Notes under the pieces: model-generated | The model's input: the letters and a program-made list of their open reading frames with translations, nothing else | What the model was told of the DNA's origin: nothing | Database searches by the model: none | Source of the DNA: Haloferula sp. BvORR071 | Lineage (GTDB): Bacteria; Verrucomicrobiota; Verrucomicrobiia; Verrucomicrobiales; Akkermansiaceae | Reading direction: 5' to 3' | Assembly: GCF_000739615.1 (NCBI RefSeq) | Contig: NZ_BATP01000022.1 | Location: 124,001 to 188,000 of the forward strand | Length of the DNA: 64,000 nt | Made by a program: the position numbers and the translations under genes | Shown: positions 9,285 to 18,118 of the stretch, piece after piece | Numbering within the stretch: position 1 is the first letter of the stretch | Layout of the letters: every line of letters begins with the position of its first letter

Positions 9285-10889
9285 CTAACGGCAGGCGCTG
9301 AAGTCGAGGCCGAAGCGGGCCAGATACTTCTTCAGGCGATCCGCATCGTTCGCTACCGCTCGCTTGGTCCGTGAGATTGCAAACAACTCGCGCCCCGCAT
9401 CCGAGAGGCTCTTGCTGCGCCGGCACACGGCCACGACATGTGCGAGTTGGACGCGATCAAAGGGATCGATTTCATCCAAGGCCTCGCCTAACAGATTCTC
9501 CAGGTCGCAGGTCTCCACGCTCGCCGTGGCGCTGCCCGGCCGCTGCCAGCTTTCACGCAGGCGCGTGATCTCTTCATCCACTTCCTCCACGCGGATGCGG
9601 CCGCGCGGGGCGAGGGTGGCCATGCGGGTGACGGCGGCATTCAGGTCGCGGAAGTTGCCTGACCATGGGGTGTCCGAGGATTCGGCGAAGCGCAGGAAGG
9701 CCTGGCGGGCTTCCTTGTTGATCGCGGCCTGGCGTCCTTGGCTACCACTGAAGCGCTCGAGCTCGAAGTCGAGGTTTGGCGCGATGTCTTCCCGCCGTGC
9801 GGCCAGCGATGGCAGCGCGAAGGTCCAGAGATGGATGCGGGCTAACAGGTCTTCGCGGAAGGTCCCCTTCCCCACCGCCGCGCGGAGGTCGCGGTTCGTG
9901 CCAGCGATGAGCTGGAAGTCGCTCTGCACCGGACGGTCGGCACCCACGGGCAGGAAGATCTTGTCCTCCAGCGCGCGTAGCAGCATCGCCTGCTCATCGA
10001 GGCCGAGCTCGCCGATTTCATCGAGGAAGAGCAGGCCGCCATCCGCTTCGCGCAGGAGACCGGGCCGGTCCTTCTGTGCGCCGGTGAAGGAGCCCCGCAC
10101 GTGTCCGAAGAGCGCGGAGGCCGCGGTATCGCCGCTCAAGGTCGCACAGTTCACCTCCACGAAGGAGCCACGCAGGCCGCCGCGCTGCTTGCGCAGCTCG
10201 AAGATGCGGCGCGCGAGGTGGGACTTCCCGGCACCCGTTGGGCCGGTGAGCAGCACCGGGGCCTGTGAGCGCAAGGCCACCTGTTCGATGCGGTCGATGA
10301 GGTGATTGAAGGCCTTGTTCCGCGTGGCGATGCCGCTCTTGAGGAAATCCGTGGTTTCCTCCTGGTCGCTGGCGAATCGAGTACTAAGTGCATCGTACTT
10401 CGAGAGATCCAGGTCGATCAACGCATAGCGGCCCGGCACCTTGTGGCGCGGGCGCGAGCCGCCCGGGGGAGGCGAGGTCTGGATCAGCTTGCCTGGCATG
10501 AATCCGGCCTCCACCAGCAGGAAGAGGCAGATCTGCGCGATGTGCGTGCCGGTGGTGATATGGATGAAGTATTCCTCCCGCTCCGGATCGAAGGGGTAGG
10601 CCCGGGCCCAATCCTGCAGCGCGCCATAGACCCGCTCGAGGTCCCAAGGATCCTTGCCGAAGTCCACCGCGTGGTGCCGCAAGCAGGTCTCCGGGGAGAT
10701 CAGGGCGATGTCTGCCGCCACCTGTTCGCTCAAGTTTTGATGGAGGTCTTCCGACAGCAGCTCGAAGCGGTCGAAGACCAGATCCTCGTGCTGGAAGAGC
10801 GAAATCGTCGGCCGCCAGTCCTCCCAGCGAGAAGGTTGGGTGCCACCGTCAAGGCGGACGCCCAGCAGACCAATCACCACTCGCTTCAT
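9285..10889 (-). CDS. rtcR: RtcR, sigma-54-dependent activator of RNA repair
   Basis: The 534-residue protein has the RtcR architecture. Residues 1-180 form the CARF-like sensor that, in studied RtcR proteins, binds RNA fragments carrying 2',3'-cyclic phosphate ends. An AAA+ domain follows with Walker A GPTGAGKS (216-223), GSFTGA (266-271, a variant of the sigma-54-contacting GAFTGA loop with Ser for Ala) and Walker B LLFLDE (286-291). A short C-terminal helical region should contain the DNA-binding HTH. It is divergent from the rsr-rtcBA operon, which has a sigma-54 promoter at 11027-11044, so it almost certainly controls that operon. Identity is very secure; the exact ligand in this organism is inferred. 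Confidence 0.95.
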   Translation of the reverse strand: MKRVVIGLLGVRLDGGTQPSRWEDWRPTISLFQHEDLVFDRFELLSEDLHQNLSEQVAADIALISPETCLRHHAVDFGKDPWDLERVYGALQDWARAYPFDPEREEYFIHITTGTHIAQICLFLLVEAGFMPGKLIQTSPPPGGSRPRHKVPGRYALIDLDLSKYDALSTRFASDQEETTDFLKSGIATRNKAFNHLIDRIEQVALRSQAPVLLTGPTGAGKSHLARRIFELRKQRGGLRGSFVEVNCATLSGDTAASALFGHVRGSFTGAQKDRPGLLREADGGLLFLDEIGELGLDEQAMLLRALEDKIFLPVGADRPVQSDFQLIAGTNRDLRAAVGKGTFREDLLARIHLWTFALPSLAARREDIAPNLDFELERFSGSQGRQAAINKEARQAFLRFAESSDTPWSGNFRDLNAAVTRMATLAPRGRIRVEEVDEEITRLRESWQRPGSATASVETCDLENLLGEALDEIDPFDRVQLAHVVAVCRRSKSLSDAGRELFAISRTKRAVANDADRLKKYLARFGLDFSACR

Positions 10890-11026: not shown

Positions 11027-11044
11027 TTGGCACGCCGGGTGCAA
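11027..11044 (+). promoter_or_regulatory. Sigma-54 (-24/-12) promoter of the rsr-rtcBA operon
   Basis: TTGGCACGCCGGGTGCAA matches the sigma-54 consensus TTGGCACG-N4-TTGCA, with GG at 11029-11030 and GC at 11041-11042 in correct spacing. Only one T of the -12 element differs. It points into rsr, whose start codon is about 55 bp downstream, and the neighbouring activator RtcR is of the matching class. Confidence 0.88.
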
Positions 11045-11098: not shown

Positions 11099-12673
11099 AT
11101 GGCAAACAAGAACCTATTCCAATCCCTGCGTGGCGCCCTCGTCCCGCAGGCCACGACCCGGAACGATGCCGGCGGGGCCGCCTACGAGCTGTCGCCCAAG
11201 GCGGCTCTCGCCCGGATGGCGGCGACGGGTTGCTTCGGCCGGACCTTCTACGCCACCCCGGAGCTGCAGCTCGAGCGCGTGCTCGAGGCCGCCCGTCAGG
11301 TGGACGATGACTTCCTGGCCCGCACCGCGCTCTACGCCCGGCGCAAGGGTTTCATGAAGGACATGCCGGCCCTGCTCTGCGCGGTGCTCGCCACCCGCGA
11401 TCTCGACCGGCTCGCCGAGGTCTTCCCGCAGGTCATCGACAACGGGAAGATGCTGCGGAACTTCGTGCAGGTCCTGCGCTCCGGCGTTACCGGCCGCAAG
11501 TCGCTCGGCTCCGCGCCGAAGCGCCTGGTCCGCCAGTGGCTCGAGCGTGCCAGCGAGCGCCAGCTCGTCGACGCCACCGTGGGCAATGCGCCTTCGCTCG
11601 CCGATGTGGTGAAGATGGTCCACCCGCGCCCGGCCGATGCCACGCGGGAAGCCTTCTACGCCTGGCTACTAGGCAAGCCATACCAGCTCGACCAGCTGCC
11701 GCAGACGCTGCAGCGCTTCGAAGCCTGGAAGGCGAACCGCGAGGGCGAGATCCCGGAAGTCCCCTTCCAGATGCTGACCGCGCTGGAACTCGGCGAGCGG
11801 GAGTGGGCGATGATCGCAGGCGCAGCCTCGTGGCAAACCACGCGGATGAACCTGAACACCTTCGCCCGTCACGGTGTCTTCCGTTTCGGCGGAATGGCGG
11901 AGAAGCTGGCTGAACGGCTGGCCGATCCCGAAAAGGTCCGGCGCGCCCGGGTCTTCCCCTACCAGCTCATGGTCGCCTACCTGAATGCAGGGAAGGACGT
12001 GCCACAGAAGGTGCGGGAAGCGCTGCAAGACGCGATGGAAGTCGCGCTCTCGAACGTGCCTGAGATCAACGGCTCGGTGGTCGTCTGCCCGGACGTGTCC
12101 GGCTCGATGCACAGCTCGATCTCCGGTTACCGCAAGGGCTCGACCTCGGCCGTGCGCTGCGTCGATGTCGCGGGCCTGGTGGCCGCCGCCTTCCTGCGGA
12201 AGAACCGGGACGCCCGCATTATCCCTTTCAAGGAGGATGTCGTGAACCTCACGCTCAACCCGCGGGATACCGTGATGACCAATGCGACCAAGCTCTCGAG
12301 CCTGCCTCCGGGCGCGACCAACTGCTCGGCACCGCTGCGACTCCTGAACCAGGAGAAGGTGGCACCGGATCTGGTGGTCTTCGTCTCGGACAACGAGTCT
12401 TGGGCTGATCCCAAGGCCGGCCGCGGAACCGCGATGCTGGAACAGTGGGAGAAGCTCAAGAGCCGTAACCCGAAGGCCCGTCTCGTCTGCATCGACCTAG
12501 TGCCAAACACCACCGCGCAGGCGCCGGACCGCAAGGACATCCTGAACATCGGCGGCTTCAGCGATACCGTCTTCGATCTCGTCGCCGCTTTTGCGGACGG
12601 CGCGGACGGAACGGATCATTGGATCCAAGAGATCAACCAGCAGCCGCTGACCGAGCGTCGGCAGACTGCCTGA
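11099..12673 (+). CDS. rsr: Rsr, bacterial Ro60 (TROVE/vWA) Y-RNA-binding protein
   Basis: The 524-residue product starts MANKNLFQSLRGAL. Residues 25-310 form the helical HEAT-like TROVE ring (SPKAALARMAATGCFGRTFY, FVQVLRSGVTGRKSLG). The C-terminal von Willebrand A domain has a complete metal site, DVSGSM at residues 332-337. Ro60 rings bind Y RNAs on the outside and the 3' ends of misfolded RNAs in the central hole, and can tether PNPase. Here the gene sits directly before eight Y-RNA-like units, the expected partners. A longer frame starts at 11027 inside the sigma-54 promoter and is excluded. The sigma-54 promoter upstream predicts co-expression with rtcBA under RtcR. Confidence 0.95.
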   Translation: MANKNLFQSLRGALVPQATTRNDAGGAAYELSPKAALARMAATGCFGRTFYATPELQLERVLEAARQVDDDFLARTALYARRKGFMKDMPALLCAVLATRDLDRLAEVFPQVIDNGKMLRNFVQVLRSGVTGRKSLGSAPKRLVRQWLERASERQLVDATVGNAPSLADVVKMVHPRPADATREAFYAWLLGKPYQLDQLPQTLQRFEAWKANREGEIPEVPFQMLTALELGEREWAMIAGAASWQTTRMNLNTFARHGVFRFGGMAEKLAERLADPEKVRRARVFPYQLMVAYLNAGKDVPQKVREALQDAMEVALSNVPEINGSVVVCPDVSGSMHSSISGYRKGSTSAVRCVDVAGLVAAAFLRKNRDARIIPFKEDVVNLTLNPRDTVMTNATKLSSLPPGATNCSAPLRLLNQEKVAPDLVVFVSDNESWADPKAGRGTAMLEQWEKLKSRNPKARLVCIDLVPNTTAQAPDRKDILNIGGFSDTVFDLVAAFADGADGTDHWIQEINQQPLTERRQTA

Positions 12674-12684
12674 ATAAAGAATTA

Positions 12685-12773
12685 CCGGCACGGCGGATGC
12701 CAGGAGGACTACACGCTCAAAACGTTCGAGCCTAACACGCTCGCTGTCTTCCGAATCCTTGCCGCCGTGCCGG
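12685..12773 (+). ncRNA. Y-RNA-like unit A (no tRNA body)
   Basis: A perfect 12-bp outer stem (CCGGCACGGCGG, 12685-12696, with 12762-12773) encloses an internal loop (AUGCCA opposite GAAUCCUUG). A 7-bp inner stem follows (GGAGGAC 12703-12709 with GUCUUCC 12746-12752), and then UACA. The apical part folds into a small CGAGC/GCUCG hairpin, not a tRNA-like body. It begins 12 nt after the rsr stop codon. The layout equals that of the units downstream and fits a minimal Y RNA with the Ro60-binding helix only. Confidence 0.82.
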
Positions 12774-12827
12774 CATTCCATCGCAAACTTCGCACCCCCA
12801 TGAACCTCACCTGAAACACTTTCCCAT

Positions 12828-12910
12828 CGGCGTGGCGGATGCCCGTGCGTGACTACATTTCGATTGTTACTCGACACACATGTCACGCCACTCCTTTTGC
12901 CGCCGCGCCG
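12828..12910 (+). ncRNA. Y-RNA-like unit B (no tRNA body)
   Basis: An 11-bp outer stem (CGGCGUGGCGG 12828-12838 with CCGCCGCGCCG 12900-12910, one G-U) is followed by AUGCCC opposite UCCUUUUG. The inner stem pairs GUGCGUGAC (12845-12853) with GUCACGCCAC (12882-12891) around one bulged C. UACA follows as in all units. The apex is a short UCGA/UCGA hairpin. Both stems differ in sequence from unit A but pair equally well, which argues for a conserved RNA fold. Confidence 0.8.
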
Positions 12911-12934
12911 CTGGGAACCATCACTTTCATTCAC

Positions 12935-13058
12935 CTGCCGAATGCGGTTGGGACTACATTAGGAAACCGAAGGCAGCGGGTTCGACTCCCGCCCTGCGCA
13001 AGCGGAGTGGAGCAACGGTAGCTCGTCGGTCTGGCGTCTCACAAATACTTGTCGGCAG
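12935..13058 (+). ncRNA. Y-RNA-like unit 1 with permuted initiator-Met-like tRNA body
   Basis: Outer stem CUGCCG/CGGCAG (12935-12940, 13053-13058), loop AAUGC opposite CUUGU, inner stem UGGGAC/GUCUCA (12949-12954, 13036-13041), then UACA. The body runs in permuted order: anticodon-stem 3' strand ACCGA (12966-12970), T arm with loop UUCGACU (12976-12992), an acceptor-like stem capped by the GNRA loop GCAA (12998-13001), D arm GAGC-AACGGUA-GCUC, and anticodon-stem 5' strand UCGGU (13026-13030), which pairs with ACCGA. The AGCUCGUCGG and CCGAAGG words match bacterial initiator tRNA. There is no closed anticodon loop and no free acceptor end, so it cannot be a working tRNA. Confidence 0.87.
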
Positions 13059-13064
13059 CCTCTT

Positions 13065-13183
13065 TCACGAATGCAGGGAAGACTACATGCAACCATAGGT
13101 CGCCGGTTCGAATCCGGCCCCGCGAGAGCGGGTAGCTCAGCCAGGTAGAGCAGTGGAAAATGTCTTCCCGCCCCTTGTCGTGA
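13065..13183 (+). ncRNA. Y-RNA-like unit 2 with permuted tRNA body
   Basis: Outer stem UCACG/CGUGA (13065-13069, 13179-13183), AAUGCA opposite a loop containing CUUGU, and a perfect 8-bp inner stem GGGAAGAC/GUCUUCCC (13076-13083, 13162-13169), then UACAU. The tRNA body has a T arm with loop UUCGAAU (13102-13118), an acceptor stem CCCGC/GCGGG sealed by the GNRA loop GAGA (13124-13127), and a D arm with GCUC/GAGC and the conserved GG in its loop. The imitated tRNA species is unclear. It starts 6 nt after unit 1. Confidence 0.88.
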
Positions 13184-13205
13184 TCCCCTTTCAGCTCATC
13201 CATTC

Positions 13206-13304
13206 ATGCTGAATGCCTGCGTGACTACATCTGGTAACCAGCTGGTTCAAATCCAGCACCGGGCTGCAAGGCCCGGAGTTTGTCTCGCAACTTCTTGTCA
13301 GCAT
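13206..13304 (+). ncRNA. Y-RNA-like unit 3 with permuted tRNA body lacking the D arm
   Basis: Outer stem AUGCUG/CAGCAU (13206-13211, 13299-13304), AAUGC opposite CUUGU, inner stem GCGUGAC/GUCUCGC with one U-U mismatch (13219-13225, 13282-13288), then UACAU. The T arm (13241-13257, loop UUCAAAU) is followed by a perfect 7-bp acceptor stem CCGGGCU/GGCCCGG capped by GCAA (13266-13269). The strand then returns straight to the inner stem, so the D arm is absent. This is either a reduced member or a deletion derivative. Confidence 0.83.
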
Positions 13305-13314
13305 CCTGCCCCTT

Positions 13315-13430
13315 TCGCGAATGCAGGAAAGATTACATTGGTCGTCGGTTCAAATCCGACCCGGTCCACTTTCAGGGCCGGTAGCTCAGTGGTAGAGCAG
13401 TTATTACGGATCTTTCCCCTCTTGTCGCGA
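13315..13430 (+). ncRNA. Y-RNA-like unit 4 with permuted Lys-like tRNA body
   Basis: Outer stem UCGCG/CGCGA (13315-13319, 13426-13430), AAUGCA opposite CUUGU, and a perfect 8-bp inner stem GGAAAGAU/AUCUUUCC (13326-13333, 13410-13417). The usual GAC before UACA is GAU here, and the partner changes to AUC, a compensatory change. The T arm is at 13344-13360, a 7-bp acceptor stem CCGGUCC/GGGCCGG is closed by a 7-nt loop (13368-13374), and the D arm is GCUC-AGUGGUA-GAGC. The UUGGUCG and GUAGAGCAGUU words resemble lysine tRNA. Confidence 0.87.
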
Positions 13431-13458
13431 TCACTTTCACCATCCCATCGACACCGCG

Positions 13459-13926
13459 ATGACCACGGAAATCGAAGTCAAACAACGCCCATCACAATTC
13501 CTCCTCTCCCGGATCGAGAATCTGGCAGCTGCCTTTACGTTCTTCTCCAGGCAGAGCGATCGGAAGGTCGCCTTCTTGCTGCAGCTCGACTTCTGGGATT
13601 GGGAGATGGACGAGATGATCTTCGCCGTCAGCAATTTCGCCGAACGTGAGAAGGCTTGGCGGGTCAGCGGGCGGACTGCGGATGACATGCTCCGCGCCGA
13701 GGGCATCGTCCTGAAGAACAAAGTCCGCAATGCCTATGGCCCCTCCACTCAGGTCAACCCGGTAAGCGCTCCGAACGCAGAACTGGCCAGACTGATCGCC
13801 ACGTGGAACGACCTGCTCAACGCATGCAACGAACTGCTCGACGTGAAATGGACCAAACAAACCTCCAAAGCCGGAGGCAAGGCGCAGCTCGATCTTTCCA
13901 AATACCGCAAACCCCTTTCCTCATGA
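13459..13926 (+). CDS. Small unassigned protein encoded inside the Y-RNA array
   Basis: A 155-residue soluble protein inserted between RNA units 4 and 5, 28 nt after one and 14 nt before the next. It has an aromatic, acidic segment (LLQLDFWDWEMDEMIFAVSNF, which spans two helices) and a later helical stretch (NAELARLIATWNDLLNACNELL). It has no signal peptide, membrane segment or catalytic motif that I recognise. There is no good Shine-Dalgarno sequence before the ATG. Because the flanking RNA units are intact and in the same orientation, it should be co-transcribed with rsr and rtcBA. A role in RNA handling is inference from location only. Confidence 0.7.
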   Translation: MTTEIEVKQRPSQFLLSRIENLAAAFTFFSRQSDRKVAFLLQLDFWDWEMDEMIFAVSNFAEREKAWRVSGRTADDMLRAEGIVLKNKVRNAYGPSTQVNPVSAPNAELARLIATWNDLLNACNELLDVKWTKQTSKAGGKAQLDLSKYRKPLSS

Positions 13927-13940
13927 CATAAGGAAGACAC

Positions 13941-14069
13941 CCCGCGAATGCCGGTGGAACTACATCATTCATAATGACCAGGTCGCCGGTTCGACTCCGG
14001 CCCGGGTTGCCTCGCAGCCCGGTAGCTCAGTGGATAGAGCAGGTAAGTTTCACCAACCCTTGTCGCCGG
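13941..14069 (+). ncRNA. Y-RNA-like unit 5 with permuted Arg-like tRNA body
   Basis: Outer stem CCCGCG/CGCCGG with one C-C mismatch (13941-13946, 14064-14069), then AAUGCC opposite CUUGU. The 8-bp inner stem is GGUGGAAC/GUUUCACC (13953-13960, 14047-14054). The conserved GAC is AAC here and its partner is GUU, a second compensatory change. The T arm is at 13985-14001 (loop UUCGACU). A perfect 9-bp acceptor stem CCGGGUUGC/GCAGCCCGG has a 3-nt loop CUC (14011-14013). The D arm (GUGGAUAGAGCA) and GGUCGCCGG words resemble arginine tRNA. Confidence 0.87.
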
Positions 14070-14091
14070 CTTTTTCCTTTCCAGAAACCTT

Positions 14092-14239
14092 TCGAATCGT
14101 GAATGCCGCAAAAGACTACACTTAGGGAGTGAGTAGCGAAAGCTGTGTGGGTTCGAGTCCCACCGGGTCCGCCGAAAGGCCGGACCCGTGGCGGAATGGT
14201 AGACGCGCTTTTGTCTTAGCAATCCTTGTCACGATTCGA
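14092..14239 (+). ncRNA. Y-RNA-like unit 6 with permuted Leu-like type II tRNA body
   Basis: A perfect 10-bp outer stem UCGAAUCGUG/CACGAUUCGA (14092-14101, 14230-14239), AAUGC opposite CUUGU, and inner stem AAGAC/GUCUU (14112-14116, 14213-14217). The body contains a long variable arm with an AGC-GAAA-GCU hairpin before the T arm (14147-14163). The acceptor stem CGGGUCCG/CGGACCCG (14164-14171, 14181-14188) is extended by CC-GAAA-GG, and the D region is GUGGCGGAAUGGUAGACGC. These are hallmarks of leucine (type II) tRNA. It ends 18 nt before the next gene. Confidence 0.89.
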
Positions 14240-14257: not shown

Positions 14258-14713
14258 ATGTTCTCCTACGAGGAACACCGTAAACAGACCATCGCCTGCA
14301 TCGAGGAGGCCTTTCTCCCAGACAGACCGGCACACGCCCTCGACCCCCACGGCGAAAAGCTCTGGCAAGAAGTCTCCGGCGACGAATTGGATGAAGCCTA
14401 TAAGCAGTATGCGTTTCTCGGCCAGCACAGCCTCCGCTTCTACCTGCCAGCGCTCATGCGCCGCAGACTGGAGGAGCACAGTGCAGGATCGGGAAGCTTT
14501 GATGCAGACTACATTCTTCTCGGACTTTCCTGCGGCCCGGGCTTCTTCCACTGCGGGCCATCCAGCTTCTTCCGTCCGGAAGAGGAAACCGCCATCGCTG
14601 CATTTCTCTTCTTCATCTCCCGCAACGGCCATGATCTCGAACAGCAAACCGCAGCAGCTGCCCTGGAAATCGGATGGTGGAAGCACCTTCCGGAATTCGC
14701 ATTCTCAGACTGA
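14258..14713 (+). CDS. Unassigned protein, paralogue of the C-terminal domain of its neighbour
   Basis: Starting at the ATG 18 nt after RNA unit 6 gives 151 residues. The helix IACIEEAFL, the QYAFLG block and RFYLPALMRRRLEEH align with IGMIEEAF, SHFAGISW and RFHLPAYMRHALK in the next gene, so the two share one domain. I believe this is a family of unknown function (DUF6714-like), but I am not certain. An upstream in-frame extension to 14129 would read through the RNA and is rejected. It lies within the RtcR-controlled operon; a stress role is inference. Confidence 0.72.
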   Translation: MFSYEEHRKQTIACIEEAFLPDRPAHALDPHGEKLWQEVSGDELDEAYKQYAFLGQHSLRFYLPALMRRRLEEHSAGSGSFDADYILLGLSCGPGFFHCGPSSFFRPEEETAIAAFLFFISRNGHDLEQQTAAAALEIGWWKHLPEFAFSD

Positions 14714-14745: not shown

Positions 14746-15534
14746 ATGCCCGAAACTCGTCATCCCTGTCCCTGCTGCGGCTACCGCACCTACCTCCGGC
14801 CAGCCGGCGGGACGATGCAGCTATGCCCGGTGTGCGCATGGGAGGATGCGCCGGGAGAGGCTACCTACAATCACTCTAACAGCGTGGACCTGGCTGATGC
14901 CCAATACAACTTCCTGGCTATGCGGGCGGCGGAGCCCGACTTTATCGACGTCGTGCGGGCACCCCAGCCGGAGGAGGCACGCTCCCCGGACTGGCTTTCG
15001 ATCGAAGACTTCCGCGTGAAACTGATCGGGATGATCGAAGAGGCCTTCCGCAAGACGCGGCTCGAGGGCGGGGTGACACTGCACCAAAGCCTCGAGTTCG
15101 ACTGCCTCGGTTACCCGAGCGACTCGATGCTCGCCGAGGCAGCGGCCAAGGATCGTGAAGATCGCTGGCAGGATATCCCTGAGGAAAAGCTTTCCCACTT
15201 CGCGGGAATCTCCTGGTCCATCATCTATCTCGATCCGGCGGGCTTCCGCTTCCACCTTCCCGCCTACATGCGGCATGCGCTGAAGACCCTCGGCTGGCGG
15301 CATACCGACGGCGAGGGGGAATGGATCATCTTCGAACTAGAGGGTGGACCATTGTCGAAGCGCATGAAGAACCGGGTGGAACTGCTGGATCGCCAGCAGC
15401 GGGCCTGCGTCGCCGCCTTCCTCCACTTCTTCGCCCGCTATCCGGAGAACCCATGTCACCCGAGCGCCGTGAAGGGCCTCGATAAAGGCTGGGATGAATG
15501 GACTCCCCCATTCGTCAAGCTAGCCGCCCTTTAA
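14746..15534 (+). CDS. CPCC cysteine-rich domain fused to the paralogous unassigned domain
   Basis: The 262-residue product begins with a CPCC zinc-ribbon-like module: HPCPCCGYRTY, then LCPVCAWEDA, giving two Cys pairs that probably bind zinc (residues about 7-35). After a linker the protein repeats the domain of the previous gene, with IGMIEEAF, LSHFAGISWSIIYLDPAGFRFHLPAYM and AFLHFFARYP. CPCC modules are often found in small proteins near toxin or immunity genes. Position just upstream of rtcB makes co-expression with the RNA ligase likely. Substrate and activity are unknown. Confidence 0.75.
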   Translation: MPETRHPCPCCGYRTYLRPAGGTMQLCPVCAWEDAPGEATYNHSNSVDLADAQYNFLAMRAAEPDFIDVVRAPQPEEARSPDWLSIEDFRVKLIGMIEEAFRKTRLEGGVTLHQSLEFDCLGYPSDSMLAEAAAKDREDRWQDIPEEKLSHFAGISWSIIYLDPAGFRFHLPAYMRHALKTLGWRHTDGEGEWIIFELEGGPLSKRMKNRVELLDRQQRACVAAFLHFFARYPENPCHPSAVKGLDKGWDEWTPPFVKLAAL

Positions 15535-15571: not shown

Positions 15572-17056
15572 ATGCACACCATCCACAAGACCGATGAAGC
15601 CTTCGGCTTCATCCCGCTCCCGGGCGATGCCGGCAAGCCGATCACCGTGGTCGGAACCGACGCGATCCGCGATACCTTCGACGAAACCTGCCTCCAGCAG
15701 GCCGTCAACTCGCGGATGGCCCCGGGTGTTACCGAGCTCGTCTTGAACCCCGATGCGCACGCCGGCTACGGCGCGCCGGTCGGCTGTGTGATGGTCTCGC
15801 CGACGCACATTTATCCGGGCCCGGTGGGCGTGGACATCAAGTGCTCGATGAGCCTACTTCAGCTCGATGTGCCGGAGGATGCGATCCAGGACAAGGCGGT
15901 CCGCCGTGCGCTGATCAATGCGATCATCGAGCGTACGCCGACGGGTGCGGGCAAGGGCCAGCGCTCGGTGAAGAAGGCTCGTCATGTCGATGAACTGGTC
16001 GGCGTGTCTGCCGTGACCGAAGGTGCGACCCAGCGCGTGTGCCAGGCACTCGGCATCCCGCCGGAATGGGCAATCCGCTGTGAGGACTCGACCCATACCG
16101 GCCACGATGGGACCTACGATGCCCTCCGTTCTCGCCTGGAGTGGATCCTGGCGCAGGGGCGCATCCGCAACTTCGTGGACAAGCTCCAGCAGCTCGGGTC
16201 CTACGGCGGGGGCAACCACTTCGGCGAGTGCGAGATCACCAAGGTCACCGACCGTCCGTGGGCGCGTGATACCGCGAAGTCCTTCGGACTGAAGGATGGC
16301 CACGTGTCCTTCCTCAGCCACTGCGGATCGCGCGGCTTCGGGAACCTGCTGGCGCAGGGCCAGTTCCGGGACTTGGAGAACAAGTTCCGCACTTGGTCCA
16401 CGCCCTTCCCGGCGGCGGACAAGCAGCTCGTCTACGCGCCGCTCGGAACCCCGGAGGCGGATGCCTACCTCGATGACATGGCGCTCGGCGCGAACTTCGC
16501 CACGGTGAACCACCTCCTGATCAATGCTCTCGTGTTAGAGGCATTCCAGGAAGTGTTGCCGGGAGCAAAGGGCCAGCTCGTCTATTTCATCTCGCACAAT
16601 ATCGCGCGGGAAGAGATCCACGAGGGCCGCAAGTCCTGGGTCCACCGCAAGGGCGCAACCCGCGCGATCCCGGGCGGCCACTTCTCGCTGGCGGGAACGC
16701 CCTTCGAGAAGACCGGCCACCCGATCCTGCTGCCGGGCAACCCGCGCGACGGCTCCGTCGTGATGGTCGCCCGCGCCGGGGCCGAGCGCACCGCCTACTC
16801 CGTGAATCACGGGGCGGGCCGCCGCATGGGCCGCAAGCACGCGGCACGCACCCTCGACCAGAAGGCCGTGGATGCCGACTTCGACCGCGACGACATCCTC
16901 AGCAACTGCCGCAAGTACCCGATCGACGAAGCGCCGGACGCTTACAAGAGCTTCCCGGAAGTGCTCCGCAGCGTGGAAAGCGCAGGGCTTGCCGAGACCG
17001 TCGCGAGTTTGAAGGCGCGCTTCGTCATCAAGGACGAGACGGCCGCCGATGACTGA
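15572..17056 (+). CDS. rtcB: RtcB, GTP-dependent RNA ligase
   Basis: The 494-residue enzyme joins 2',3'-cyclic phosphate or 3'-phosphate ends to 5'-OH ends through a guanylylated histidine. The metal and active-site landmarks are present: HAGYGAPVG (63-71), GVDIKC (86-91, Asp and Cys ligands), GGGNHF (212-217), SHCGSRGFG (249-257), ISHN (340-343), HRKGATRA (358-365) and NHGAGRRMGR (412-421), with His413 as the expected nucleophile. Many RtcB proteins have D-x-N-C; this one has D-x-K-C, which is worth noting. It is the expected effector of an RtcR-controlled operon and lies 37 bp after the CPCC gene. Confidence 0.96.
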   Translation: MHTIHKTDEAFGFIPLPGDAGKPITVVGTDAIRDTFDETCLQQAVNSRMAPGVTELVLNPDAHAGYGAPVGCVMVSPTHIYPGPVGVDIKCSMSLLQLDVPEDAIQDKAVRRALINAIIERTPTGAGKGQRSVKKARHVDELVGVSAVTEGATQRVCQALGIPPEWAIRCEDSTHTGHDGTYDALRSRLEWILAQGRIRNFVDKLQQLGSYGGGNHFGECEITKVTDRPWARDTAKSFGLKDGHVSFLSHCGSRGFGNLLAQGQFRDLENKFRTWSTPFPAADKQLVYAPLGTPEADAYLDDMALGANFATVNHLLINALVLEAFQEVLPGAKGQLVYFISHNIAREEIHEGRKSWVHRKGATRAIPGGHFSLAGTPFEKTGHPILLPGNPRDGSVVMVARAGAERTAYSVNHGAGRRMGRKHAARTLDQKAVDADFDRDDILSNCRKYPIDEAPDAYKSFPEVLRSVESAGLAETVASLKARFVIKDETAADD

Positions 17057-17107: not shown

Positions 17108-18118
17108 ATGAAAGCAATCCAACTCGACGGCAGCAGCGGCGGTGGCCAGATGCTGCGCACCGCCCTGTCCCTGGCGATGGTCACGGGGCAGCCCTTCCGC
17201 ATGACGAATATCCGCGGCAAGCGCCCGCGGCCTGGCCTGATGCGCCAGCACCTCACCTGTGTGAAGGCCGCCTGCGAGATTTCCGGCGGCACCGCGGATG
17301 GCGCGGAGATCGGCTCGACTGAGCTCGTTTTTCGCGCCGGGAAAGTACGAGGCGGATCGTATCAATTCGCCATCGGCACCGCGGGCAGCACCACCCTGCT
17401 GCTCCAGACGCTCCTGCCAGCCCTTTGGCAGGCGGAGGAGCCCGCTACTCTCGCCCTGCAAGGCGGCACGCACAACCCGATGGCGCCGCCCTTCGAGTTC
17501 ATCGACCGCGTCTTCCTCCCGGCCATGGCTCGCATGGGCGGGGCTGCTACCGTGACCCTCGCTAGCGCCGGCTTCGCACCCGCCGGTGGCGGCGTGCTGC
17601 ATGCTTCAATCCAGCCCTCGCCAAAGCTGCAATCCATCGACCTGATGACCCGCCCGGAGTCCGGCGAGTCGCGCATCCGCGTGCTCAGCCGCCACCTGCC
17701 ACTTTCGATCGGCGGACGGATGCTCGATTCAGCCCTCGCCCTGATGCCCTGCAAGGACGCCGCGGTGGAAAGCTGCGAGCCCGGCCCCGGTGCCGGCATC
17801 TGCTGCCTCGTCGAAGCTGAGTTCGGAGAGCTCCGTGAGATGACCAGCAGCTTCGGCGAGCAGGGCGTCAGCGCGGAGAAAGTCGGGAGACATGCGGCGA
17901 AGACCATGCTCGACTTCATCGGCTGCCGCGTGCCCGTCGGTCGCTGCCTCGCGGACCAGTTGCTGCTGCCCATCGCGCTCGCCGGCGGTGGTCGCTTTGC
18001 CACCATGGCCCCTGATGCCCACGTGCCGACGAATATCGCCGTGATCGAGAAGTTCCTGCCGGTCCGCTTCAGCATCCGGAAGGAGGAGCGGGGAGTTCAC
18101 GTGGTCGAAGCCGGGTGA
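17108..18118 (+). CDS. rtcA: RtcA, RNA 3'-terminal phosphate cyclase
   Basis: The 336-residue protein opens with the family signature IQLDGSSGGGQMLRTALSLAM and contains RGKRPRPGLMRQHL and GTAGSTTLLLQTLLP. Near the C-terminus, DAHVPTNIAVIEKFLPVRF places the nucleophilic His at residue 305. RtcA adenylates RNA 3'-phosphates and converts them to 2',3'-cyclic phosphates, the ends that RtcB can join. It is the last gene of the operon, separated from rtcB by a hairpin. Length and motifs are complete. Confidence 0.95.
   Translation: MKAIQLDGSSGGGQMLRTALSLAMVTGQPFRMTNIRGKRPRPGLMRQHLTCVKAACEISGGTADGAEIGSTELVFRAGKVRGGSYQFAIGTAGSTTLLLQTLLPALWQAEEPATLALQGGTHNPMAPPFEFIDRVFLPAMARMGGAATVTLASAGFAPAGGGVLHASIQPSPKLQSIDLMTRPESGESRIRVLSRHLPLSIGGRMLDSALALMPCKDAAVESCEPGPGAGICCLVEAEFGELREMTSSFGEQGVSAEKVGRHAAKTMLDFIGCRVPVGRCLADQLLLPIALAGGGRFATMAPDAHVPTNIAVIEKFLPVRFSIRKEERGVHVVEAG

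Follow-up and report, generated by a model that had tools for sequence, protein, structure and literature searches.

What are the Y-RNA-like units that lie between rsr and rtcB in the bacterium Haloferula sp. BvORR071, and what might they do in an RNA repair operon? The window analysed here, meaning the whole stretch of DNA under study, covers 64 kb of the 7.8-Mb genome. An earlier note on this DNA had described an array of eight units, six of them with a circularly permuted tRNA body, which could present tRNAs or compete for them during repair. We confirm the eight units by sequence comparison, reduce the number of complete permuted bodies to five and add a feature that the note had overlooked: units G and H, correctly recognized as tRNA-like, also carry an anticodon-like arm. 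This structural conclusion is strongly supported by sequence and covariation, while a role for the RNAs as baits for anticodon nucleases is put forward tentatively.

Eight Y RNA units, five with a permuted tRNA body

The eight units are as follows (bp, base pairs; z, folding energy against dinucleotide shuffles; bits, score against the Rfam YrlA model RF02553).

12685..12773, plus strand: unit A, plain Y RNA with a 12-bp outer stem and without a tRNA module (z −5.49; class of 8)
12828..12910, plus strand: unit B, plain Y RNA without a tRNA module (z −3.92; detector score 15.0, the lowest of the eight)
12935..13058, plus strand: unit C, YrlA whose permuted body most resembles elongator tRNA-Met (49.3 bits; z +0.20)
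13064..13187, plus strand: unit D, YrlA whose permuted body is opened at the anticodon loop (78.7 bits)
13206..13304, plus strand: unit E, minimal YrlA-like RNA with a T arm followed by a sealed acceptor-like hairpin (36.6 bits; z −2.67)
13314..13434, plus strand: unit F, YrlA with a tRNA-Thr-like permuted body, without an anticodon arm (69.7 bits; z −3.27)
13941..14072, plus strand: unit G, YrlA with a permuted cloverleaf including an anticodon-like arm (72.1 bits; 23-sequence class)
14093..14238, plus strand: unit H, YrlA with a tRNA-Leu-like permuted body, a long variable arm and an anticodon-like arm (31.2 bits; z −4.51)

A detector for the Ro-type double stem (motif plus stem), tuned on this array itself, found eight units on the plus strand of the window, all inside the array and scoring 15.0 to 23.0. 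It also gave three distant minus-strand matches (17.0, 15.5 and 14.5), so the score alone cannot part units B (15.0), C (15.5) and E (16.5) from chance; in 20 Markov shuffles of the 64 kb, no match reached 15. All eight units possess the Ro-binding double stem with its conserved internal loop (AUGC and CUUG letters). The Rfam YrlA model, which owes nothing to the detector tuning, matched six of the eight, with D, G and F reaching the gathering score of 69 bits and C, E and H below it; units A and B gave no match to this model up to an E-value of 1. Measured against dinucleotide shuffles, folding was better for every unit (z −2.2 to −5.5) except C. Together with the covariation described below, these searches bear out the eight Y-RNA-like units and the Y RNA (YrlA) identity of the array.

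The permuted order proposed earlier, with the T arm first, a loop-sealed acceptor stem second and the D arm last, was recovered in C, D, F, G and H. Unit E, previously counted as a sixth case, has no D arm, and neither A nor B has a tRNA-like domain. Minimum-energy folds are not tRNA-like for C and H and omit the D arm of D. The acceptor stem of unit C is degenerate in this genome, pairing at 4.0 with itself and at 5.0 with unit D.

Covariation in related genomes

To place the units among their relatives, 40 loci were fetched around YrlA matches in the family (loci are numbered with an L prefix). At a loose threshold of 14, at least one unit was detected at 36 of them. Five loci lack a true array: L123, L124, L125 and L127 have no unit, and L126 has one weak match that is probably false. 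In a tree of 134 units, with class members picked by hand, 91 fell into seven classes common to several species and 43, including unit B, were unplaced; the seven other units of the window belong to classes found in related genomes. The Ro-type stem covaries in all seven classes. Pairs changed on both sides were present in the RNAalifold structures of class A (11/16), C (23/32), D (17/28), E (7/24), F (8/27) and H (6/29). For class G (23 sequences), a seven-helix structure is paired in 97.7% of cells, against 26–46% in slid controls, and both-sided changes affect 22 of its 35 pairs (mean of 7.7 in shuffles, with 0 of 500 shuffles matching this). This structure was drawn by hand from the same sequences, so the paired percentage leans towards it and the both-sided changes are the stronger part. 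Compensatory pairing, noted earlier within the array, is also supported in relatives.

Within class H, eight of the 12 units (L091, L092, L094, L096, L097, L098, L105 and L111) have lost the T-loop UUCGA and the D-loop GG together, and the other four keep both. Joint loss or retention is expected if the elbow contact of tRNA matters, with the proviso that these are related species and few events.

An anticodon-like arm in units G and H

In both units the Ro-binding stem interrupts the anticodon stem on its 5′ side; in class G the point of entry falls between positions 28 and 29 of tRNA numbering. A 3-bp hairpin after UACA is extended by two long-range pairs with the nucleotides (nt) that follow the D arm, giving a 5-bp stem and a 7-nt loop:

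13965..13979, plus strand: anticodon-like hairpin of G, UCA-(UUCAUAA)-UGA, triplet CAU; CC pairs with GG at 14042–14043
14119..14133, plus strand: anticodon-like hairpin of H, CAC-(UUAGGGA)-GUG, triplet AGG; AG pairs with CU at 14208–14209, as seen in the sequence

Across class G, helices 3 and 4, which form this arm, are paired in 100% of lettered cells. A pyrimidine at position 32 and U33 are present in 23/23 sequences, a purine at 37 in 21/23 and a 7-nt loop in 19/23 (by eye). Relatives with the same kind of arm as H occur at L088, L089 and L099.

Positions 34–36 vary most in class G, with a mean pairwise difference of 0.67 and eight triplets among the 12 units from the genus (the value is 0.67 both with 10 genus units and with all 12 of the alignment). 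By the same measure the loop that seals the acceptor gives 0.58, positions 32–33 give 0.20 and the T loop 0.10. Six of the 19 class G 7-nt loops are identical to the anticodon loop of an actual tRNA in the Haloferula genome, where 1.8 are expected (p about 0.0045). Overall, 14 of 43 loops are identical to host tRNAs (8.8 expected, p 0.0096). Related species are not independent, and this identity is only suggestive.

The arm recurs across phyla

We assembled a wider sample from the best 80 of 575 genome rsr loci and 72 viral loci, both from an Rsr alignment search, together with the family loci; 386 units remained after removal of identical cores. A rule based on geometry alone (3-bp stem, 7-nt loop and a spacing of 7 nt from the hairpin end to the T stem, letters free) selected 47 hairpins. 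These have a pyrimidine at position 32 in 47/47 cases, U33 in 45/47, a purine at 37 in 43/47 and A38 in 40/47, against a background T frequency of 0.216. Outside the discovery loci, U33 is found in 27 of 29 such hairpins. After dropping four units without a recognized D arm, the two long-range pairs were standard in 42 of 43 (shuffling of partners gave a mean of 17.9, and 0 of 20 000 shuffles were as high), the pairs being CC/GG in 20 units, CG/CG in 18, GC/GC in two and CU/GG and GG/CC in one each.

The form occurs in Pseudomonadota, Acidobacteriota and Verrucomicrobiota, in one Bacteroidota metagenome-assembled genome (L161, possibly mis-binned) and in viral contigs (L209, L230 and L257). 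Cupriavidus, Massilia, Comamonas testosteroni, Hydrogenophaga, Rhodanobacter and several Acidobacteria are among the loci concerned. A wide closing rule was passed by 55 of 247 modules with a T arm (50 shuffles: mean 12.8, maximum 27). This rule both overcounts, since L193 looks false, and undercounts, missing unit H of the window and stems split elsewhere (L280 and L283). It flagged 23 named loci, a figure that is not a rate because identical units had been removed first.

In L280 and L283, from another family of the same order, the anticodon stem appears by eye to be split one pair further along, with the loop UUCAAAA. Openings in the D loop that keep the whole anticodon side were seen, again by eye, in L169 (Methylibium; Leu-like with a long variable arm), L201, L203 and viral L257. 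By this inspection, tRNA bodies are attached to the Ro stem through at least three different opening points.

These RNAs share with YrlA (RF02553) the Ro double stem with AUGC and CUUG, the T arm, the sealed acceptor, the D arm and a position beside rsr/rtcBA. In the alignment to the YrlA model the anticodon hairpin is an insert between model positions 23 and 24. A review likens YrlA to the D, T and acceptor arms (PMC8394870), to which G and H add an anticodon arm; unlike described YrlA, H also adds a long variable arm, and elsewhere some units have their opening in the D loop. On sequence grounds, the anticodon-arm Y RNA appears to be a new variant of YrlA. Among the titles listed in a literature search, none was on anticodon arms in Y RNAs; several relevant studies fell outside it, and an earlier description is possible.

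Which tRNAs the bodies resemble

The same genome supplied 50 distinct tRNA sequences for comparison with the bodies. The earlier claim of different tRNA bodies stands for some units: F is closest to tRNA-Thr, the four best matches of H are all Leu and C is nearest tRNA-Met, narrowly (60 versus 58), with a lead that rests on the 5′ half (35 versus 23). It is less clear for D and G, which match several isotypes almost equally, and for E, which matches none clearly. At L101_2814, a Gln-CUG loop is joined by eye to a Gln-type D arm.

The units do not look like functional tRNA genes: ARAGORN found no ordinary tRNA in the 64-kb window, and the acceptor strands are closed by a loop and so have no free 3′ end. 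CCA falls exactly at positions 74–76 in 20 of 215 modules, preceded by A in 15 of the 20; at other offsets it was found in one to seven modules each, except offset 5 with 34. ARAGORN was also given modules that had been closed artificially at a series of cut points and called 156 of 218, with 144, 143 and 140 called in shuffled controls; it does not discriminate, and we did not use it as proof.

Known circularly permuted tRNA genes mature into working tRNAs. As in the permuted genes of PMC3978253, the 3′ portion of the tRNA precedes the 5′ portion in the DNA here. Unlike them, the Haloferula units have a Ro stem at the junction and a closed acceptor, and no tRNA would be expected from them.

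Several Y RNAs per locus are normal among the sampled rsr loci

How unusual is an array of eight? The earlier note had put most described loci at one or two Y RNAs. Among the 80 genome rsr loci, those most like Verrucomicrobial Rsr, the numbers of detector units on the rsr strand of the fetched stretch were 0, 1, 2, 3, 4, 5, 6 and 7 at 5, 5, 17, 27, 13, 7, 5 and 1 loci, respectively, counts that include some doubtful units. At least three units were present at 53 of the 80, so several Y RNAs per locus are normal there and eight lies at the top; a unit on the opposite strand was found at one locus. Of the 72 viral rsr loci, 22 had at least one unit, with up to 10. Viral contigs L208, L257 and L268 have 10, 8 and 7 detector-called units.

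Counts based on the YrlA model need more care. We put 17 loci through ARAGORN. At nine loci from the phylum with YrlA scores of 43–45 bits (L285–L288, L290, L293, L295, L299 and L300) it found two neighbouring tRNA genes of the same anticodon each, and L124 and L127 also contain tRNA clusters; at L280–L284 and L123 it found no tRNA genes. The weak phylum matches were accordingly rejected as Y RNAs, the neighbouring tRNA genes accounting for nine of them, and YrlA tallies of 86/195 and 44/288 genomes are inflated for the same reason. The good scores that neighbouring tRNA genes reach with YrlA are a warning for use of this model; they also suggest a possible origin for the permuted body. Two matches, L284 (47.0 bits) and L123 (44.5 bits), have neither ARAGORN tRNA genes nor a detector unit. 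Elsewhere in the Haloferula genome there is one extra weak YrlA match of 23.4 bits (G000:C18:10279-10385, L007).

The operon setting

The gene order from left to right is rtcR on the minus strand, a sigma-54 promoter, rsr, the Y RNA units, two DUF6714 genes, rtcB and rtcA.

9285..10889, minus strand: rtcR, sigma-54-dependent activator with an RtcR sensor domain (Pfam RtcR 5.3e-75, Sigma54_activat 1.3e-49)
11028..11043, plus strand: sigma-54 (−24/−12) promoter TGGCACGCCGGGTGCA, upstream of rsr (11/12 consensus positions)
11099..12673, plus strand: rsr, Ro60 orthologue, ATG start (Pfam vWA_Ro60 1.5e-18)
13459..13926, plus strand: open reading frame of 155 amino acids that separates unit F from unit G within the array (no Pfam family match)
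14258..14713, plus strand: DUF6714 protein (Pfam 7.3e-11)
14746..15534, plus strand: Cys-rich CPCC and DUF6714 fusion protein (Pfam 6.3e-16 and 1.3e-24)
15572..17056, plus strand: rtcB, RNA ligase (Pfam RtcB 2.3e-99)
17108..18118, plus strand: rtcA, RNA 3′-phosphate cyclase (Pfam RTC 1.2e-73)

These Pfam matches agree with the placement of the array in an rtcR/rsr/rtcBA operon, as first proposed. The rsr product also matches TROVE at 1.1e-4, just under the Pfam cut-off, and NCBIfam Rsr at 3.8e-31 (108 bits, far under that model's cut-off of 900). A sigma-54 score of at least 9 was found in 83 of 112 related rsr upstream regions, taken from two overlapping locus sets, where letter shuffles expect 0.6. 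At the 32 of 40 family loci where rsr and rtcB are both in view, all detected units lie between the two on the same strand; rtcR is also in view at 28 of these. The Salmonella rsr-yrlBA-rtcBA operon, as described in PMC7790460, has the same order, with a divergent sigma-54-type RtcR followed by rsr, Y RNAs, rtcB and rtcA. It has two Y RNAs in name, while the Haloferula array has eight and the operon has extra DUF6714/CPCC genes.

Relatives of the 155-residue reading frame occur at two of the 40 family loci (L091 and L113), and relatives of the CPCC-DUF6714 protein at seven. That the DUF6714 proteins between the Y RNAs and rtcB might protect against tRNA-cutting toxins is a guess.

A possible role as anticodon baits

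Why would a Y RNA keep an anticodon arm? According to PMC7790460, RtcR binds 5′ tRNA halves with cyclic-phosphate ends that arise from anticodon-loop cleavage in Salmonella, and E. coli rtcBA is switched on by colicin D and by VapC; its authors raise the possibility that YrlA competes for the anticodon nuclease as an inhibitor. Extended to Haloferula, tRNA cleavage would activate RtcR, the Y RNAs would be made and Rsr would hold them, and enzymes that read the tRNA elbow and the anticodon loop would recognize the Rsr-held RNAs. Lacking a free CCA end, these should be neither charged nor used in translation. The set would then act as baits or competitive inhibitors for anticodon nucleases, with different bodies and loop triplets covering different nucleases, while RtcA and RtcB would reseal real tRNAs and possibly nicked baits too.

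An anticodon loop, the missing CCA end and a changing triplet make a bait role fit better here than for plain YrlA, and the retained arms favour enzymes that read this loop over the presentation of tRNAs, or competition for them, during repair. We consider a bank of Rsr-held baits plausible, at somewhat short of an even chance. A bolder version is possible but doubtful: a fast-changing bank of complete tRNA look-alikes on Ro60, opened at the anticodon loop, anticodon stem or D loop, in which the triplets would be in an arms race with anticodon nucleases and the operon would combine RtcAB repair with a decoy arm.

Several observations weigh against baits, or against the anticodon-like arm itself. 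Salmonella YrlA is not cut by the SOS anticodon nuclease, according to PMC7790460, an objection tempered by a review in which that RNA mimics no arms but the D, T and acceptor arms (PMC8394870). The anticodon arm is absent from most tRNA-like units, as the wide-rule count above indicates. The variability of positions 34–36 also fits a lack of constraint, the loop that seals the acceptor being nearly as variable. Identity with host loops weakens outside the family (distinct loops 9/32, p 0.058). A is at position 34 in 20 of the 47 geometry-only hairpins, and A34 is unusual in real tRNAs. L088_2580 clusters with class G in the tree yet has no anticodon hairpin, and the class G alignment omits it. 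Finally, single-sequence minimum-energy folds of G and H give a hairpin of 5 bp with a 3-nt loop.

The main rival to baits is a tether, in which the tRNA-like parts recruit PNPase, or some other protein that binds tRNA, to Rsr so that damaged RNA is degraded, the several bodies reflect dosage or partners and the anticodon arm is a structural leftover. We regard this as rather unlikely, though serious. A Deinococcus Y RNA tethers PNPase to Rsr, as reported in PMC7790460 and PMC8394870, and the many units without an anticodon arm fit a tether well. A leftover arm, on the other hand, should not keep a pyrimidine at 32, U33, a purine at 37 and a split 5-bp stem across phyla while its triplets change.

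Neutral growth of paralogues, with captured pieces of tandem tRNAs whose number and loops drift and selection on the Ro-binding stem only, is unlikely. The arrangement would arise easily, given that neighbouring same-anticodon tRNA genes already score about 43–45 bits with YrlA, and both the modules with CCA exactly at 74–76, mostly after A, and the class H loss of UUCGA and GG in several species agree with such a history. Such drift is hard to reconcile with the compensatory changes kept in the T, D, acceptor and anticodon helices of class G and in most helices of the other classes.

A still less probable role is that of sentinels, where the anticodon-bearing Y RNAs would themselves be cut and their ends would report attack to RtcR or engage RtcB, with no protection of tRNA. 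The array lies in the same operon, and the cyclic-phosphate ends that RtcR senses in the account of PMC7790460 are of the kind such cuts might leave on 5′ halves. A cut permuted RNA would give no normal 5′ half, however, because its 5′ piece carries the Ro stem, and the RNAs would come from the very operon to which they report.

The hairpin after UACA might instead be an ordinary one of 5 bp with a 3-nt loop, unrelated to an anticodon arm, as the minimum-energy folds of G and H have it; this we think very unlikely. Among the 47 geometry-only hairpins, positions 33 and 37 can pair in 43 and positions 32 and 38 in 22. Pair 31–39, however, is AU in 16, CG in 14, GC in nine and UA in seven, and 30–40 also takes all four Watson–Crick types, whereas 33–37 stays U with a purine (U-A or U-G in 42 of the 43) and 32–38 is mismatched in 25 (C-A in 19). 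The 50 host tRNAs behave in the same way, with 33–37 standard in 49 and 32–38 in 17, which argues for a 7-nt anticodon-type loop and not a longer stem, as do the long-range pairs that complete the 5-bp stem in all but one unit.

Lastly, the array might consist of decayed tandem tRNA genes, with every module made up of the tail of one tRNA and the head of its neighbour. A tRNA-model match of 25.7 bits, under gathering, that spans units C and D speaks for this explanation, but it is barely credible and largely refuted by the covariation of acceptor pairs within units; a Ro-type stem also frames the modules, and ARAGORN finds no tRNA. For D, F, G and H the best partner of the 3′ acceptor strand is the 5′ strand of the same unit, though not for C or for E (7.0 with its own strand, 8.0 with G).

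Implications for Y RNAs

The units point to a design rule for Y RNAs, in which a closed tRNA may be opened at any of several points and then hung on Ro60. Because anticodon nucleases could bind or cut a Y RNA that displays an anticodon loop, such RNAs would make the idea of competition for these enzymes directly testable.

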